Part shown: piece after piece, positions 2,114 through 28,118 of the stretch | How the letters are laid out: each line of letters opens with the position of its first letter | Numbering within the stretch: position 1 is the stretch's first letter | Source: a virus | DNA: 35,353 nucleotides | Strand: one strand, 5' to 3' | Virus record (IMG/VR): IMGVR_UViG_3300043313_001108 | Coordinates: 1 to 35,353 of that record | The notes under the pieces: model-generated | Database searches by the model: none | What the model was told of the DNA's origin: nothing | The model's input: only the letters and a program-made list of their open reading frames with translations | Position numbers and translations under genes: made by a program

Positions 2114-2835
2114 TCAGCCTGCCTTTCTGTCCTCTGCCAGCATGCGGGCCAGCCGGGTGTCCGCGGACATCAGACCTATGATCATGTGCCGCAGTGATGT
2201 CCATCGGCCTGCGCGCATTCTCGCACGGTCCCCCAGGTCGAACCCGTATTCGGAGATCAGATCGGCCCAGACCAGGTGCCAGTGCTCAAAGATCGTCTCC
2301 CAGGTGAGCGTCTGCCCGCGCGTTACCGCCTTCGTCGCGGACGGCGGCGCGTCGTACCACTCGTAGATCCCACTGGCGGGGTCGTACTCGCCGCGCCCGT
2401 ATTCGGCATTGAAACGATCCGCGGCTGAGCCGCCGGCGCCGCGCGCTTGCTCCGCCGCGGCTGCGAGGCTTTTGGGTCACCACCGCTGTTCCAGAAGGTC
2501 ATGGCGGCGTCTTCGCCTAGGCCCGTCCAGATCAGCGCGGTCAGCGCGAAGAGCCGCTGCGTGGTGAAGCCGAACCCATCCGCCGCCAGTTCGTCCCAGA
2601 CGGGGCCCAGCAGGCGGACGTACATCGCCTTCTCTTCGTCATCGTCCAGCACCAGGGGCGGAAGCTTCCGGCCGCCCAGGTCGATACCCTGATCCGCTGC
2701 GATTCCGGCCGTGCAGAATGCCGTGCACCACAAGCCCAGCTCTTCGTCCGGCTCGGGGATGTAGTACGTCTTCTCACCAGCGGGGAGGGCAAGCCTCCCG
2801 TCGAACACTTCATAGAGATTCTTGAATCCGCTCAT
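2114..2835 (-). CDS. Tail assembly chaperone, frameshifted long form (gpGT-like)
   Basis: This is the -1 frameshift product of the gene starting at 2835. The shorter frame reads through a perfect slippery heptamer, C CCA AAA (minus strand, 2476-2470). Slipping back one base gives an open frame of about 120 further codons ending in TGA at 2114-2116, just before the tape measure start. The extension is not random: it contains FNAEYGRGEYDP, a Trp/Tyr-rich segment and an acidic/aromatic helix (WETIFEHWHLVWADLISEYGF) typical of the T domain of actinophage chaperones. The T part would bind the tail tube protein while the G part coats the tape measure during assembly. It has no good start codon of its own, so it needs the shift. 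Confidence 0.87.
2323..2835 (-). CDS. Tail assembly chaperone, short form (gpG-like)
   Basis: This 170-residue protein starts at ATG 2835 (MSGFKNLYEVFDG), a beginning widely seen in actinophage tail assembly chaperones. The body is acidic and helical, with WNSGGDPKA just before the C-terminal tail. The tail after about residue 125 is a low-complexity Pro/Ser/Thr/Arg run ending in an Arg-rich stretch, the usual look of the unshifted terminus. Longer starts further upstream run into the inverted repeat at 2855-2922 and are unlikely. It lies between the tail tube and tape measure genes, and most ribosomes should make this form. Confidence 0.88.
   Translation of the reverse strand: MSGFKNLYEVFDGRLALPAGEKTYYIPEPDEELGLWCTAFCTAGIAADQGIDLGGRKLPPLVLDDDEEKAMYVRLLGPVWDELAADGFGFTTQRLFALTALIWTGLGEDAAMTFWNSGGDPKASQPRRSKRAAPAAQPRIVSMPNTGAASTTPPVGSTSGTTRRRPRRRR
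2470..2476 (-). promoter_or_regulatory. Programmed -1 frameshift slippery site
   Basis: The minus strand reads CCCAAAA, in the zero frame C CCA AAA, which allows both tRNAs to re-pair after a one-base slip. It lies about 120 codons into gpG, and the -1 frame stays open to the tape measure start. The position and the heptamer type match known G/GT shift sites. Confidence 0.85.
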
Positions 2836-2854
2836 CGCCTGCCCGTTCTGTTGG

Positions 2855-2922
2855 GTGAGCCCCCTCCCCCTGCTCGCTGATCCCGGATCTGACCGGGGCG
2901 CCTGCGCGGGGAGGGGGCTCAC
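2855..2922. terminator. Long hairpin between tail tube and chaperone genes
   Basis: A perfect 15-base inverted repeat (2855-2869 against 2908-2922) encloses a 38-base loop. It sits right after the tail tube stop on the minus strand. There is no T-run, so it may attenuate transcription so that tail tube message exceeds downstream message, or stabilise the 3' end of the abundant upstream RNA. Confidence 0.6.
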
Positions 2923-2937
2923 GTCGTGATGGTGCGC

Positions 2938-8849: not shown

Positions 8850-8879
8850 ATCTTAGTGGTACGCCACTGGGCCGGTCAA
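8850..8879 (-). promoter_or_regulatory. Promoter with operator TAGTGG-N4-CCACTg (site 1)
   Basis: On the minus strand, -35 TTGACC (8879-8874) and -10 TAAGAT (8855-8850) are separated by 18 bases. The palindrome occupies 8854-8869, with one change from consensus in the outer half. The start codon lies seven bases after the -10. Confidence 0.8.
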
Positions 8880-22632: not shown

Positions 22633-23117
22633 GTGGTGGCGTTCTCCTTCAGCCAGTTGCGCATCTGCCCAACGATCCGCACCCGGCCGAACGTGGCGCC
22701 GGTCGTCGGCAACGCCCTCAGCTGGGTCTTGAGATGCTGGGGCACCAGCCGCCAGCAGCGGCCGCAGGCGACCAGCTTGCGCGAGACCTCCGGCTGGCCG
22801 CACCCCGGGCAGTCCATCGTGGTGGGCGGGAGCGGGTAGGCCTCCTTGCACGGCCCGTCGTATCGGCTGGTCAGACTGACGACCGTGACGTGCTTCGTGC
22901 CGCCGGCGGCGTCGGCCAGCATCACGTCCCAGAGCTTCGTGCCATCCGGTGCGAGGTAGGTGTACGGGCGCCCGAGGTTCTCCACGACCACCCCCGAGCC
23001 GCCGCAGAAGAGGCAGGGGGACTGCGTGGCGGTCGGGTCCTTGCCGTGCCCCTCGCACCGCTTGCACACCGTGTCGAGCGCCGTGTAGCGCCCGTACACG
23101 ACCTGAACCTTTTTCAT
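22629..23117 (-). CDS. DnaJ-type zinc-finger protein
   Basis: This 162-residue protein carries CKRCEGHG (Cys18, Cys21) and CLFCGGSG (Cys35, Cys38), a DnaJ-type zinc centre. A second centre is formed by CPGC (103, 106) and CGRC (118, 121). Between them is a beta-rich region (YTYLAPDGTKLWDVMLAD..VTVVSLTSRY). There is no J domain. It overlaps both neighbours by ATGA, so it is probably made with the helicase and RusA and may help assemble or target them to DNA. The partner role is inferred. Confidence 0.75.
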   Translation of the reverse strand: MKKVQVVYGRYTALDTVCKRCEGHGKDPTATQSPCLFCGGSGVVVENLGRPYTYLAPDGTKLWDVMLADAAGGTKHVTVVSLTSRYDGPCKEAYPLPPTTMDCPGCGQPEVSRKLVACGRCWRLVPQHLKTQLRALPTTGATFGRVRIVGQMRNWLKENATT

Positions 23118-24823
23118 GACTGGTCCCTCCGTAGTTGCTCAACGACCTCATCGAACCTGCGCGAGGCCTGCTCGATCGCGATCAGATCTGCGACCTGGCC
23201 GCCGTGCGCGCCCGCAGGCACCACGACCCCGTACCGCTGCGCGTCGTGCTCCTGCACCAGCGTGACCGGGCGCGCCCGCCAGCTCCTGCCCTTGCGTGCG
23301 TACCGCGCTTCTCTGCCCGTGACGTCATCCTCTGCCCAGGCCATCAGATAGCCCTTGTCCGGGATGTCGCGCTGAATCCAGGTCGAGCCCCCACCCCGCT
23401 CGCGCGAGGCGGACACGGCGGACCAGGTGTGCGCCCGCCGGCCCGGGACGAGCGCGATGAACCGGCTCCCCGCCGGCAGGAACCAGGTCCCACCGTGCGT
23501 CACGAGCCAGTTGTTCGAGCTGGCGTGGAAGAGGTCGACCTCCACGCTCATGAGGTCGCCGTCGACCCGCTCCTCCGCCTCGAGGTCTTGTGGCCCTAAG
23601 GTCTCGAGCTTTTCCGGCCGCTTGCAGGAGCAGACGTCCGGCGCCCCTCCCCCGCAGGCGCAGTCATCCGTGCAGCGCCGCCGGCCGCAGCGGCACACGT
23701 CGCTGCCGTCGCAGGCGCAGGGCTCACGCTCCATCGCCTCCGCCGCCTCTTCACCGAACAACTCCACGCGGGCGTTGAGGCTGTGCATGGCGGTGACGCC
23801 CACGGGGTCCAGGATCAGCGCGTGCGTGTAGCCGGGGAACGGCCGGAGCACGCGCCCGGCCATCTGGATGTAGAGGCCCTGGCTGCGGGTCGGCTTCATG
23901 ACGGCCGTCTTGAAGCGCGGGCTGTCCCAGCCCTTCGTCAGCACGTCGCAGTTGCAGACGACCTGGATCTTTCCCGCATCGGCCGCCTGGAGGATGCGGC
24001 GGCGCTCGTGCTTCGGGGTGGCGCCGGAGACCCACGCGGAGGTGAAGCCGGCGGCGGTGAACGCCTCGTCCATGAGCTGTGCGAAGTGCACACCGGGGGT
24101 GAAGACCACGGTGGAGTCGTTCGGCGCGTGCTCCTGGACAGCCCGGACGATGGCCTGGGGCGCGAGGCTGGCGGACAGCGCAGCGTCAAGGTCGCTGTCG
24201 CGGTACTCCCCGCCCGTGGTGCGCACGCGGGAGAGGTCCAGCGACGGCACGCCGACCCGGCGGCCGCGGGCGTAGACCAGGTGCCCGCGCTGCTGCAGCA
24301 GGGAGAGCGGCACCCGGTAGACCACGTCCTTGAAGACCTGGCCCAGGGCGGCGCCGTCGCCCCGCATGAAGGTCGCGGTGACCCCGAGGACCAGCGCGTC
24401 CGGGAAGTGCGCGAGCACCTTGCGGTAGCTGGCACTGGTGGCGCCGTGGCACTCGTCCACCACGACGAGCGCGACGTCATGCAGCTGGCGGAGGCGATTG
24501 TCGCCGACGATGGTCTGGATCGAGCAGACCACGATGTCCGCCAGGGTCTGGTTCATGTGCGCCTTGACGATGCCCACGGTGAGGTCGGGGGACTCCCGGC
24601 GCTGGCGGGCGGCCGCCTGCTCGATCAGCTCGATCCGGTCCGCGATGATCAGCACCCGGCGCCTGGTGCGCATGTGCACCTCATGCGCATAGGTGCTGAA
24701 GATCTTCGTCTTGCCCCCACCCGTGGGGACCACGATGGCGATGCTGCGCTGGCCGGAGGCGTGGGCCGCGCGGATGGCGTCCAGGGCCTCCTGCTGGTGC
24801 TCGAAGAGCGTCTCACTGCTCAC
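23114..24823 (-). CDS. SF2 DEAD/DEAH-type DNA helicase with Cys-rich insertion
   Basis: This is a 569-residue ATP-dependent helicase. The motifs are Q-like FEHQQEALDAI (8-17), Walker A PTGGGKT (33-39), DECH (123-126), VTAT (148-151), TKGWDSP (296-302) and QMAGRVLRP (320-328), as in the RecG/UvsW/type III restriction-like group. Between about 369 and 400 is an insertion with nine cysteines in 32 residues, probably a multi-zinc or iron-sulphur site. The C-terminal 160 residues are beta-rich (NWLVTHGGTWFLPAGSRFIAL) with a final basic helix. It starts at GTG 24823 with a GTGA overlap. Likely role: branch migration or replication restart together with RusA. Confidence 0.9.
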   Translation of the reverse strand: MSSETLFEHQQEALDAIRAAHASGQRSIAIVVPTGGGKTKIFSTYAHEVHMRTRRRVLIIADRIELIEQAAARQRRESPDLTVGIVKAHMNQTLADIVVCSIQTIVGDNRLRQLHDVALVVVDECHGATSASYRKVLAHFPDALVLGVTATFMRGDGAALGQVFKDVVYRVPLSLLQQRGHLVYARGRRVGVPSLDLSRVRTTGGEYRDSDLDAALSASLAPQAIVRAVQEHAPNDSTVVFTPGVHFAQLMDEAFTAAGFTSAWVSGATPKHERRRILQAADAGKIQVVCNCDVLTKGWDSPRFKTAVMKPTRSQGLYIQMAGRVLRPFPGYTHALILDPVGVTAMHSLNARVELFGEEAAEAMEREPCACDGSDVCRCGRRRCTDDCACGGGAPDVCSCKRPEKLETLGPQDLEAEERVDGDLMSVEVDLFHASSNNWLVTHGGTWFLPAGSRFIALVPGRRAHTWSAVSASRERGGGSTWIQRDIPDKGYLMAWAEDDVTGREARYARKGRSWRARPVTLVQEHDAQRYGVVVPAGAHGGQVADLIAIEQASRRFDEVVEQLRRDQS

Positions 24824-25056
24824 GCGGCAGCACCCGGCGTCACGTAGCGCAGCGGCCGGGAGGGACGGATCGGCCTGGCGATGACGAGCTCACCCCGCTG
24901 GAGCAGGTGCGTCCAGGCCTGCTCGAAGAACAGCCGGTCCCGGGCCGGGATCGTGCGCCGGTAGTCACGCTTCGTGCGGTACCGCATCGGCCGGCGCGAC
25001 GCGTCGCGCAGAGCTGCGACGGTCGCGGCGAGGGGGTCGGGTGCGTGCACGGTCAT
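24820..25056 (-). CDS. Small basic protein heading the helicase operon
   Basis: This 78-residue protein starts at ATG 25056, seven bases after -10 TAAGCT, so it is probably leaderless. It is strongly basic: RDASRRPMRYRTKRDYRRTIPARDR, then FFEQAWTHLLQRGELVIARPIRPSR. It may bind nucleic acid (inference). It is the first gene of the helicase-zinc protein-RusA operon and is coupled to the helicase by overlap. No family is recognised. Confidence 0.66.
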   Translation of the reverse strand: MTVHAPDPLAATVAALRDASRRPMRYRTKRDYRRTIPARDRLFFEQAWTHLLQRGELVIARPIRPSRPLRYVTPGAAA

Positions 25057-25063
25057 GAGGTCG

Positions 25064-25092
25064 AGCTTAGTGGAGCGCCACTAAGGAGTCAA
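25064..25092 (-). promoter_or_regulatory. Promoter with operator TAGTGG-CGCT-CCACTA (site 7)
   Basis: On the minus strand, -35 TTGACT (25092-25087), a 17-base spacer and -10 TAAGCT (25069-25064) enclose a perfect palindrome (25068-25083). The ATG is seven bases downstream. The stop of the upstream 94-residue gene lies within the operator. Confidence 0.86.
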
Positions 25093-25365
25093 GTCCATGA
25101 GGCGCTGCGCCTCGTCCAGTTCGGCCACGAGCCCCAGGCGCGTCTCGTCCGGCACGGGAGTGCCGGCGGACAACTGGTCGCTGGCGGGCTGGCGGTTGAT
25201 CCAGCCGTGCCCGATGGCGTGCATCGTCGCCTTGACGAAGTGCGGCCGGTCGGCGGAGGCGAGGGCGTTGCGAGCGTCGGTGATGGACACCGTGCCGTGG
25301 TTGTGCGTGCGCCGGGCGATGAGCCGCGCGATACGTGCGATTCCCTGGGAGTCCGTGGATGCCAT
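25081..25365 (-). CDS. Small probable DNA-binding protein beside the origin
   Basis: This 94-residue protein starts at ATG 25365 (MASTDSQGIARIARL). No Shine-Dalgarno sequence precedes it, but TATCCT lies six bases upstream, so a leaderless start is plausible although the -35 is poor. Residues 8-50 (IARIARLIARRTHNHGTVSITDARNALASADRPHF) look like a helix-turn-helix, and the C-terminus is acidic. Longer frames reach into the iteron region and are unlikely. Its position next to the putative origin suggests a replication or copy-control role (inference). Confidence 0.55.
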   Translation of the reverse strand: MASTDSQGIARIARLIARRTHNHGTVSITDARNALASADRPHFVKATMHAIGHGWINRQPASDQLSAGTPVPDETRLGLVAELDEAQRLMDLTP

Positions 25366-25399
25366 AGGGGGAGGATAGCAGATGTAGTAGACATTGATG

Positions 25400-25662
25400 G
25401 GTTTGATGTGGACAACGAGGACATGTGGACAAGGCCCTTCAGGGGTGTCCACATTTTCTGTGACGCAGGGTGGCAGTCCGCTTACTACTGTGCAGTAGCC
25501 TCTTTACCGATACAAAGATGTCCCTAGCAGGGAATATTTACATGTATGTATGTGTGTGAGAGAGGACTCGCATAACGCGCGAGGCCGGTAGGGGCAGAGA
25601 AACAGAGACACCCCCGATGTGGACAAGATCATCTGTCCACATCGGGGGTGCGTGTCCACATC
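25400..25662. other. Putative replication origin with DnaA-box-like iterons
   Basis: Six copies of ATGTGGACA (or its complement) lie in a markedly AT-richer non-coding stretch between the 94-residue gene and the primase gene. Exact actinobacterial DnaA boxes (TGTGGACAA, i.e. TTGTCCACA) are at 25407-25415, 25424-25432 and 25618-25626. One-base variants are at 25445-25453, 25633-25641 and 25652-25660. The AT-rich core between them (about 25470-25560) contains TATTTACATGTATGTATG and could be the unwinding element. Short frames drawn across it are low-complexity and not credible genes. Confidence 0.7.
25611..25648. repeat. Perfect inverted repeat carrying two DnaA-box-like sequences
   Basis: Arms of 15 bases (25611-25625 against 25634-25648) with an 8-base loop each contain GATGTGGACA. 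It lies 20 bases beyond the primase stop on the minus strand, so it could also serve as a transcription terminator. Confidence 0.75.
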
Positions 25663-25667
25663 GAGCG

Positions 25668-28064
25668 TTAGACGTGCGTCGATCCTTTGACGAACGTCCC
25701 GTCCAGCTCCCCGAGCCAACCCCGCTCCGTAGCGACCAGCAGGGCGTCAACGACCAGGGAGCGATCCCTGGAATTGAGCACCCGGCGGATCGCGCCGGCG
25801 GTGAGGGCGCCCTCCTGCTGCACGCGCCGGGTCACCGCGAGCGCCACCCGCTCAACCTGGTGGCGCTCGCGATCCTCGCGTGCCTCCAGCACGGCAAGGG
25901 TCGCCTCCGTCTCCTGGGCGGAGTACGCCGCTCTACGGTCCGCTGCGGCTTTTCCCGCCATCGCCTGCCCGAAACTGACCAGGTGGTCCTGGACCCGGCG
26001 CGAGGTGTCCCAGACGATCCTGGCCAGCCGCCAATCCTCGGTGGTCACGTCCCGTCTGCCGTCCAGCTGGGCCAGCAGGGTGGAGAGCTTCACCAACATC
26101 AGCGGCCGGTGGGAGTCCAGAGGCGGGAGCACGAGCTCCCCGCGCGCCACCGCACGCACCTCAGGCTTGATCTCCGCGATGATGGCCGGATCGAAGGTGA
26201 CCGGCCGCAGATCCGCCACCGCGGCCCCGATGATCCAGGCGTTGCCGTCCGACTGGCTGGCCGGCCAGACGTCACGCAGCCCCCCGGGGTCGGGCACATC
26301 CTCATCCGGGATGGTCGGGTCTGATGCCCAGCACCACAGGAAGCGCTGAGGGGTGCCGGCGGCGCTGTCCGCCAGCAGGGGCTGGGCCGTCTCCGGCTGG
26401 AACCCGATCAGCATCCCGAGCGAGTAGCGCCCCTGCTCGATCACCCGCGTGGTCTCCACCCGCCCGTTGCTCTGCCCGATCGTGCCGCCCACCCAGGCCC
26501 GGCGCAGCGTCTCGCCCACCGTGGAGCCGGAGCGCTCGATCAGCTTGGCCAGAGCCTCCCCCTCGTCGGCGTGCATGAGGGCGTTGTGGATGACCTGGGC
26601 GCGCACCTTCTCCGTCTTCACCGCGCCCTTGAGGTCCTGGAGCGGAACTCCGTGCTCCAGCTTGGGCACGCTCTTCGTGCCCATGTAGACCTCCGCGATG
26701 CCCTCCCCCGTGCCCAACGGCCGGTCGTCGGCGTAGGCGGGCCGGTCCAGCCACGGGGGCCGCGGCAGCAGGGAGCGTGCCACGCTGATCCCCGAGGTCT
26801 TGCCCGATCCGGACGGGCCCACGGTGGCGCTGAAGAGGTTGGCGCACGCGCCGTCCTTGATCCCATTGTTGATCTTCAGCTGGTGCGGCCAGAGGCTGGC
26901 CAGCCGGGTCAGCACGGAGTGCAGCACGACGTCCGCCCCGACCAGGCGGGAGTGTGCCGCCAGCTGGATCTGCTTCAGCACGGGCCGGGCGCCCCAGAAC
27001 TCAGCCGGGAGGTTCAGCCCGATCGGCGACGTCGGCGAGCCAGTGATAGAGGGGTGCAAACCCGGGGGTGCCGGATCGGCGAAGACGAATCCATCCGTTG
27101 CTGGCGGGGATGAGCCGGACGCTGCCGTCGGGCCCTGTGGAAAATCCAGGCGCTCACCGCCCCAGGTGTCCGGCGGCAGCTCCGCCGCCTTGTCCATCGT
27201 GCGGTGCGCCGCGTTGCGCCAGACCCCGTCCGCCTCGTGCTGGCCGAACGGGTCGACCTTGTTGCCGGACGCCTGCTCCGCCGCGGCGAGGTAGGCATCA
27301 TAGGTCGCGTCGTACTCCAACCACCCCGCGTTGAGGAGCTCGTGCAGGCGGCAGGCCACCACGAAGGCGCGGGAGTTGCGGGAGCTGGACTCCTGGGCCA
27401 GCTCGCGGAGCACCGCGTCCCTGGCCCTTACCGCGTAGGCGGCGGCGCGGCTGTCCAGCGTGACCGGATCATGGGCGACGACGGCGGGCCGGTCATACGG
27501 CAGGGGCCTGATGTCGTCCAGGAGCCAGTGCGGCGCCGCCCAGGGGATCGCATCCCGGGTCACCTCATAGGCACCCTTGTCCGTGATCGAGGGGGCCAGC
27601 ACAATCTGGCCACCGGTGCCCCGGATGTCCAGGCCCGCGCCCAGCCGCCCGGTCGCGTTGGTCGGCTCGAAGTCGGCTGGCATCGTGAAGAGGCAGTGCA
27701 GGCCCTTCCCGCCCGTGCGCTGCTCCCAGGTCGGCGGCAGCAGGCGGCCGGCCCGTTCGTACTCCTGGAGCGTGAGGAGCCCGCCGTTCTTCGGGTCCAC
27801 GTCGAGCGCGAACACGCCGCTGGGGCGGCCGGTGGCGAGGCCCACGTTGGTGGGCAGACCGCGAGCGAGGCGCCAGCCGGAAATGGCGTTCCAGACCCCG
27901 AGGTCGTTGATCGGGACCTTCTGCCAGTTGCGGTAGAGCGGGTGCTTTCCGGCGTTCTTGCAGGCCTGCCCGAGGTCGCATGTGCAGACGCCCCCCACGA
28001 CACCGTGAAGGGCGACGATGGACCAGCCTCGTGCGAGGTAGCCGGTAACGCTATCATCCGTCAT
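25668..28064 (-). CDS. Primase-polymerase / ATPase replication protein
   Basis: This is a 798-residue protein. The N-terminal prim-pol domain (about 1-190) has the Cys/His-containing start ending AGKHP, FALDVDPKNGG (Asp88, Asp90), GGKGLHCLF (118-126) and a DIRGTGGQIVLAPS block, as in the bifunctional primase/polymerase family. A helical linker (about 205-300) joins a DUF3987-like P-loop ATPase with GPSGSGKT (416-423). A C-terminal helical region includes a likely winged helix (TRRVQQEGALTAGAIRRVLNSRDRSLVVDALL). It would make primers and unwind DNA at the adjacent iteron region. Start ATG 28064 has AGGACG upstream. A shorter start would break the prim-pol domain. Confidence 0.88.
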   Translation of the reverse strand: MTDDSVTGYLARGWSIVALHGVVGGVCTCDLGQACKNAGKHPLYRNWQKVPINDLGVWNAISGWRLARGLPTNVGLATGRPSGVFALDVDPKNGGLLTLQEYERAGRLLPPTWEQRTGGKGLHCLFTMPADFEPTNATGRLGAGLDIRGTGGQIVLAPSITDKGAYEVTRDAIPWAAPHWLLDDIRPLPYDRPAVVAHDPVTLDSRAAAYAVRARDAVLRELAQESSSRNSRAFVVACRLHELLNAGWLEYDATYDAYLAAAEQASGNKVDPFGQHEADGVWRNAAHRTMDKAAELPPDTWGGERLDFPQGPTAASGSSPPATDGFVFADPAPPGLHPSITGSPTSPIGLNLPAEFWGARPVLKQIQLAAHSRLVGADVVLHSVLTRLASLWPHQLKINNGIKDGACANLFSATVGPSGSGKTSGISVARSLLPRPPWLDRPAYADDRPLGTGEGIAEVYMGTKSVPKLEHGVPLQDLKGAVKTEKVRAQVIHNALMHADEGEALAKLIERSGSTVGETLRRAWVGGTIGQSNGRVETTRVIEQGRYSLGMLIGFQPETAQPLLADSAAGTPQRFLWCWASDPTIPDEDVPDPGGLRDVWPASQSDGNAWIIGAAVADLRPVTFDPAIIAEIKPEVRAVARGELVLPPLDSHRPLMLVKLSTLLAQLDGRRDVTTEDWRLARIVWDTSRRVQDHLVSFGQAMAGKAAADRRAAYSAQETEATLAVLEAREDRERHQVERVALAVTRRVQQEGALTAGAIRRVLNSRDRSLVVDALLVATERGWLGELDGTFVKGSTHV

Positions 28065-28093
28065 AGGTCGTCCTGCCCGTTCGACTCGTGAGC

Positions 28094-28118
28094 CCCCGCG
28101 GGGAACGACCGCGGGGGT
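28094..28118. terminator. Hairpin between the primase and the 108-aa gene
   Basis: A 9-base GC stem (28094-28102 against 28110-28118) with a 7-base loop follows the 28134 stop on the minus strand. It is extended by imperfect GAG/CTC pairing. It probably ends the short upstream transcript. Confidence 0.6.

Follow-up and report, generated by a model that had tools for sequence, protein, structure and literature searches.

What recognises the six short repeats that lie just past the primase-polymerase (prim-pol) gene of the virus IMGVR_UViG_3300043313_001108? The window analysed here is the whole of this IMG/VR record, 35,353 bases, which comes without a host. An initial annotation took the repeats for a phage replication origin built from host-type DnaA boxes, while naming a phage protein, such as the 94-residue neighbour, as another conceivable reader. 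Comparison with related loci indicates that, very probably, 25406-25661 is the phage's own iteron origin and the winged helix at the prim-pol C-terminus its reader.

Results

Gene setting of the repeats

Family scans detected tape measure, tail, head, portal and terminase proteins among the minus-strand genes of the window, and because of this gene content the virus is assigned to the tailed siphovirus-like phages. The end of the record either cuts inside the tape-measure gene or adjoins it. The minus strand carries most genes left of 28100; plus-strand ORFs, scanned for context, gave no family hits, and a distant nucleotide search of 24800-28100 against phages returned no match. The prim-pol gene (25668..28064, minus strand) belongs to the same gene run as an SF2-type DNA helicase recognised by family match (ResIII / phrog_16; 23114..24823, minus strand), and the six repeats sit between the prim-pol stop and the gene for the 94-residue protein (25081..25365, minus strand).

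A second, dispersed motif was noted along the way. The palindrome TTAGTGGCGCGCCACTAA occupies about ten sites of 18 bp each genome-wide (window positions 8853, 12122, 12208, 13267, 17853, 22175, 25067, 28515, 29744 and 32061), with 12 matches at up to five mismatches against about one expected in shuffles, and is found in none of six related loci. Several sites lie just 3' of a TTGAC(A/T) hexamer, a short distance ahead of a start codon, and they look like operators of a phage repressor placed inside promoters, comparable to stoperators.

Six iterons flank an AT-richer core in mirror orientation

The repeat ATGTGGACA is present in six exact copies, starting at 25406 (+), 25423 (+), 25446 (-), 25617 (+), 25634 (-) and 25653 (-). 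Followed along the prim-pol strand, iteron 1 (25653..25661, minus strand) runs in the sense of the gene and starts 7 bases past its stop; then come iteron 2 (25634..25642, minus strand, sense), iteron 3 (25617..25625, plus strand, antisense), the core (25455..25616), iteron 4 (25446..25454, minus strand, sense), iteron 5 (25423..25431, plus strand, antisense) and iteron 6 (25406..25414, plus strand, antisense). The resulting pattern, ++-|+--, is a mirror. Counting non-overlapping copies within 260 bp, the most frequent 9-mer reached two or three in 60 dinucleotide shuffles, compared with the six observed, so the cluster of six within about 255 bases described by the initial annotation is real. 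Its AT-rich core is likewise borne out by GC content: the spacer, the presumed unwinding element, has 52% GC, with a lowest 40-bp stretch of 35%, vs 71% further downstream. That no 40-bp stretch of the core falls below 35% GC nevertheless counts against the origin reading.

The perfect 15-base inverted repeat attributed to two of the boxes is present as well (CCCCCGATGTGGACA at 25611-25625 and TGTCCACATCGGGGG at 25634-25648), with iteron 3 in its left arm and iteron 2 in its right. Together with their C/G flanks, iterons 2 and 3 form a perfect hairpin of 19 pairs with a 6-nt loop (25608..25651, minus strand; fold z -3.1). Because this hairpin also resembles a terminator for the prim-pol transcript, that transcript may end within the origin itself. 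A simple terminator was considered and rejected, the hairpin using only two of the six copies.

Position and anatomy are conserved in related loci while the word drifts

Direct searches yielded one close viral relative, locus L004, whose prim-pol is 47% identical. It has the same anatomy past the prim-pol stop, but carries the word GGCGTACA and, over its full 13.6 kb, no copy of TGTCCACA. TGTGGAC words occupy the same place in a Streptantibioticus prophage-like locus (L038) and in a 59-kb Nonomuraea plasmid with terminase genes (L045), and the viral relatives L050 and L052 carry GTGTACA and L051 CGTGGACA. The Nonomuraea locus (NZ_LT559120.1, 12048-23325) belongs to Nonomuraea gerenzanensis plasmid III, which is annotated as a plasmid and encodes its own DnaN; given the terminase genes beside its prim-pol replicon, it is probably a phage-plasmid. 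Outside this group, repeats again lie directly 3' of the prim-pol gene in Dulem virus 32 (CGTGGCCA), Gordonia phages Reyja (CCTGGAAA) and Francois (CCAGCAAAC) and Mycobacterium prophiGD12-2 (GTCGGCCA). Two loci depart from the layout. The Tsukamurella plasmid L046 shows no clear iteron cluster beside its prim-pol, and in the Corndog-type Mycobacterium phage Firecracker TGTTGTACA repeats flank AT-rich DNA in a 500-bp gap between divergent genes (L058:4362-4680). This gap, a probable origin of Corndog-type phages, lies upstream of the prim-pol gene, at a distance of about 3 kb, instead of following it, a placement that counts against the proposed origin reading.

We then drew on a larger set of about 107 loci, assembled with a profile and by searching related Streptomyces-type genomes, in which the relatives' words were extracted automatically and oriented with a template. 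A significant iteron cluster was found in 66 of the approximately 107 loci, its first iteron starting a median of 8.5 bp past the prim-pol/helicase stop. Two iteron groups are present in 62 of the 66, separated by a core with a median length of 112 bp and 49% GC vs 69% outside; the first iteron is sense in 55 of these 62 loci and the last antisense in 55, many of the loci being exactly ++-|+--. Between families the word drifts (TGTGGACA, GGTGGACA, GGGGACA, GTGTACA, GGCGTACA, CGTGGCCA), and TGTGGACA is kept in only 3 of 55 alignable families. With position and anatomy conserved in some 66 loci, the annotation of a replication origin beside the prim-pol gene is well supported by comparative evidence.

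The repeats might instead serve transcription alone, as a terminator of the prim-pol transcript together with operators for the 94-residue gene. The terminator-like hairpin fits this idea, as do iterons 4 to 6, which lie 41-89 bp upstream of that gene's start codon; yet 62 loci keep the mirrored pair of iteron groups around an AT-richer core, and the word tracks the replication protein, as described below. We regard a purely transcriptional role as extremely improbable. It is possible, however, that the repeats serve both replication and transcription.

The iteron word does not follow host DnaA

Much about the locus recalls a bacterial oriC: clustered 9-bp boxes lie beside an AT-rich element, and the three exact TTGTCCACA boxes of the initial annotation do exist, on the minus strand at 25407, 25424 and 25618. 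They are the only copies in the 35,353-base record, span about 220 bp beside the AT-richer core and match the actinobacterial DnaA box, on which host-family oriC boxes centre. Recruitment of host DnaA to all six sites to open the phage origin would account for this much. The repeats, however, conform poorly to such boxes. What all six have in common is TGTCCACAT, the copies include GTGTCCACA and CTGTCCACA, and the first T of the DnaA box is found in only three of the six. The base after the box is T in 6/6 window iterons, whereas among 64 boxes located past the dnaA genes of seven related Streptomyces-type genomes (at most one mismatch to TTGTCCACA) it is G in 49 and T in 6, although these are hosts of the relatives and may not match the host of the window phage.

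Those seven genomes have nearly identical DnaA C-termini. The prim-pol loci of the prophages within them nevertheless carry four words, namely TGTGGAC in one, GGTGGACA in two, GGGGACA in three and CCTGTACA in one, so that the site is not conserved across relatives in hosts with the same DnaA. The word at this position varies with the phage protein domain and not with the host. Host DnaA boxes were rejected on the ground that the word differs among relatives despite near-identical host DnaA C-termini, and we consider DnaA-driven opening of this origin highly unlikely. Because four words stand against one near-constant DnaA, a flanking T against G, and because TGTGGACA persists in so few families, the resemblance to TTGTCCACA is best explained as a chance outcome within a drifting word family. 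Host DnaA could still touch the three matching sites of the window incidentally.

The prim-pol ends in a winged helix with stand-alone relatives

The proposed initiator is a protein of 798 aa that matches PF09250 (E 1.1e-30) and PF13148, DUF3987 (E 8e-10), the latter being its sole Pfam match past the primase domain. The top structural matches of the helicase part, as an AlphaFold model, are all MCM (VIA Z about 15 over about 265 residues); by sequence, this part has no close relative among solved structures beyond P-loop matches. At the C-terminus, a sequence profile and an AlphaFold model both place a winged-helix domain (25671..25829, minus strand). This small domain carries an X-R-D-R/K motif, here S765-R766-D767-R768 (25761-25772, minus strand), the proposed base-reading motif.

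The gene downstream of the origin encodes, as its 94-residue product, a free-standing member of this winged-helix family with the motif SADR. It was recognised by a leave-one-out profile (E 3.8e-12) and by a profile of prim-pol C-termini alone (E 7.7e-15); it has no match among the viral contigs searched. AlphaFold predicts a winged helix, with three helices and two strands, for both the prim-pol part and the stand-alone copy. For the latter (pLDDT 87, H-H-H-strand-strand), motif residues 37-40 form the N-terminus of the modelled recognition helix (37-52). The nearest solved structures are the winged-helix domains of Rpa2 and cullin (Z 9-10), generic winged helices that do not discriminate. 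An adjacent 78-aa ORF (24820..25056, minus strand; motif ARDR) is a probable second stand-alone copy by profile match, with E 5.3e-5 for a broad profile and E 0.11 for a narrow one. With this ORF as an apparent second such copy, one DNA-reading domain may be present in the window in three versions. A profile search of iteron-bearing relatives found stand-alone winged helices near the origin, besides the two window ORFs, only in L052 and L131. In L052 a convergent gene directly behind the prim-pol (2276-2932, minus strand) encodes a protein with this winged helix at its C-terminus (SHRDR) and a different N-terminal part.

Two winged-helix residues covary with two iteron bases

We scored 383 alignment columns covering the helicase and the winged helix as predictors of iteron bases, using consensus words in template orientation, treating T and G equally at both tested positions, and correcting for the tree by paired contrasts and helicase control columns rather than by a full phylogenetic model. 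Scored in this way, iteron base 3 is predicted far better by the R/K column of the motif (z 35.5) than by any other column (runner-up z 6.8), and column X is, narrowly, the best predictor of base 5 (z 4.3 vs 3.8). The counts come from 48 families with an X-x-D/E-R/K motif. K is paired with G at base 3 in 16/16 families (GGGGAC-type words), and R with T in 31/32 (GTGGACA), the remaining one having C; all six tree-independent K/R contrasts (6/6) run in the predicted direction. At base 5, a small X (S, G or N) is paired with G in 34/39 families (GGAC) and any other X with T in 8/9, Y, H, K and M being mostly paired with GTAC. This second rule is broken in 6 of the 48 families, and most of its contrasts agree, the exceptions being L096, L113/L144, L139/L142 and L081/L153. 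L126, L132 and families without RDR, which have other words or motifs, do not fit the code.

Two close pairs illustrate the switch. Between L121 and L122 the helicase is 92% identical and the winged helix 60%, and a G-to-M change accompanies GGAC to GTAC; between L045 and L050 the figures are 83% and 60%, and S to Y accompanies the same change of word. The covariation looks like that of an initiator co-evolving with its own binding sites. We advance a further idea tentatively, as something short of probable: two residues, X and the R/K of X-R-D-R/K, would set the iteron word, with the stand-alone copies acting in trans as regulators of copy number or superinfection. If such a code holds, a few substitutions would switch origin specificity in proteins that otherwise remain about 80-90% identical.

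The 94-residue protein could alternatively be the main reader and recruit the prim-pol. It is a clear member of the winged-helix family and adjoins iterons 4-6; against this, no stand-alone copy was detected near the origin in most iteron-bearing relatives, it is the domain within the prim-pol that the iteron word tracks, and families with an x-ADR motif like its SADR (L112, L081) have altered words. We therefore consider it very unlikely as the principal reader. The earlier suggestion that a phage protein reads the repeats thus holds in kind but shifts in its candidate, from the 94-residue neighbour, a stand-alone copy of the domain, to the winged helix of the prim-pol itself.

Discussion

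The prim-pol and its iterons most likely form a self-contained initiator-origin pair. In the mechanism that we propose, the C-terminal winged helix would bind the ATGTGGACA iterons, with host DnaA presumably unneeded for reading the sites. The MCM-like character of the helicase part makes it natural to suppose a ring helicase that is loaded through the protein's own origin-binding domain, and, as the two sets of three iterons mirror each other across the core, two rings could assemble on the iteron groups facing each other. The MCM-like AAA+ domain (DUF3987) would then melt the AT-richer core, the N-terminal prim-pol domain would make primers, and replication of the phage would start at 25406-25661. 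The 94-aa winged helix, and probably also the 78-aa one, are plausible trans-acting regulators of the origin; in what is the least certain step, they may compete for the iterons and thereby tune initiation or their own transcription.

These findings correct a tempting DnaA reading. They also point to where replication probably begins in a large group of elements, comprising actinobacterial phages and prophages and a single phage-like plasmid, for which we found no origins described. The proposed initiator-iteron recognition code is testable by single substitutions and, if true, would make origins predictable from protein sequence. It also suggests how replicons of the same family may become compatible or incompatible in one host. 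In the limited open-access literature covered, we found neither this type of origin nor such a code described for actinobacterial phages, and the published account of PICMI satellites, which have DUF3987 primases, is silent on iterons.

Several known systems share parts of this design. SaPI Rep recognises, through its C-terminal domain, iterons located immediately 3' of the gene that encodes it (PMC7581432, citing Ubeda 2007). SaPI Rep/ori, and SCCmec Cch2 with its downstream repeats, resemble the proposed window pair in combining an initiator helicase with a C-terminal domain that reads short iterons directly 3' of its gene. Here the first box lies 7 bases past the stop (median 8.5 in 66 loci), and winged-helix residues covary strongly with iteron bases, so that the C-terminal domain may set specificity here. 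The SaPI helicase, however, is of the DUF927 or D5/Primase_Cterm type, whereas the window has PF13148 DUF3987 with an MCM-like fold; the SaPI and SCCmec elements are from Firmicutes, with a separate primase in some, whereas the window type belongs to actinobacterial phages, fuses an AEP prim-pol, a DUF3987 (MCM-like) helicase and a winged helix, and has its own winged-helix motif.

In P4 alpha, as described in PMC4234260 and references therein, primase, helicase and winged helix share one polypeptide and the winged helix reads origin repeats. The window protein has the same C-terminal winged helix fused to primase and helicase, but P4 alpha uses a TOPRIM primase and the window an archaeo-eukaryotic prim-pol (PF09250). 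ORF904 of pRN1 also combines an AEP prim-pol, a helicase, described as SF3, and a C-terminal winged helix in one protein, with an essential origin element just 3' of the gene (PMC4234260), as in the window. That element is a single stem-loop of about 100 nt without iterons (PMC4234260), unlike the six iterons in two mirrored groups and the 19-pair hairpin with a 6-nt loop found here. For the prim-pol of pTN2, a C-terminal winged helix has likewise been suggested as the origin reader (PMC5862659). By analogy, the window pair appears to work like SaPI Rep/ori and P4 alpha, yet it falls outside both families, because its helicase type differs from that of SaPI and its primase type from that of P4.
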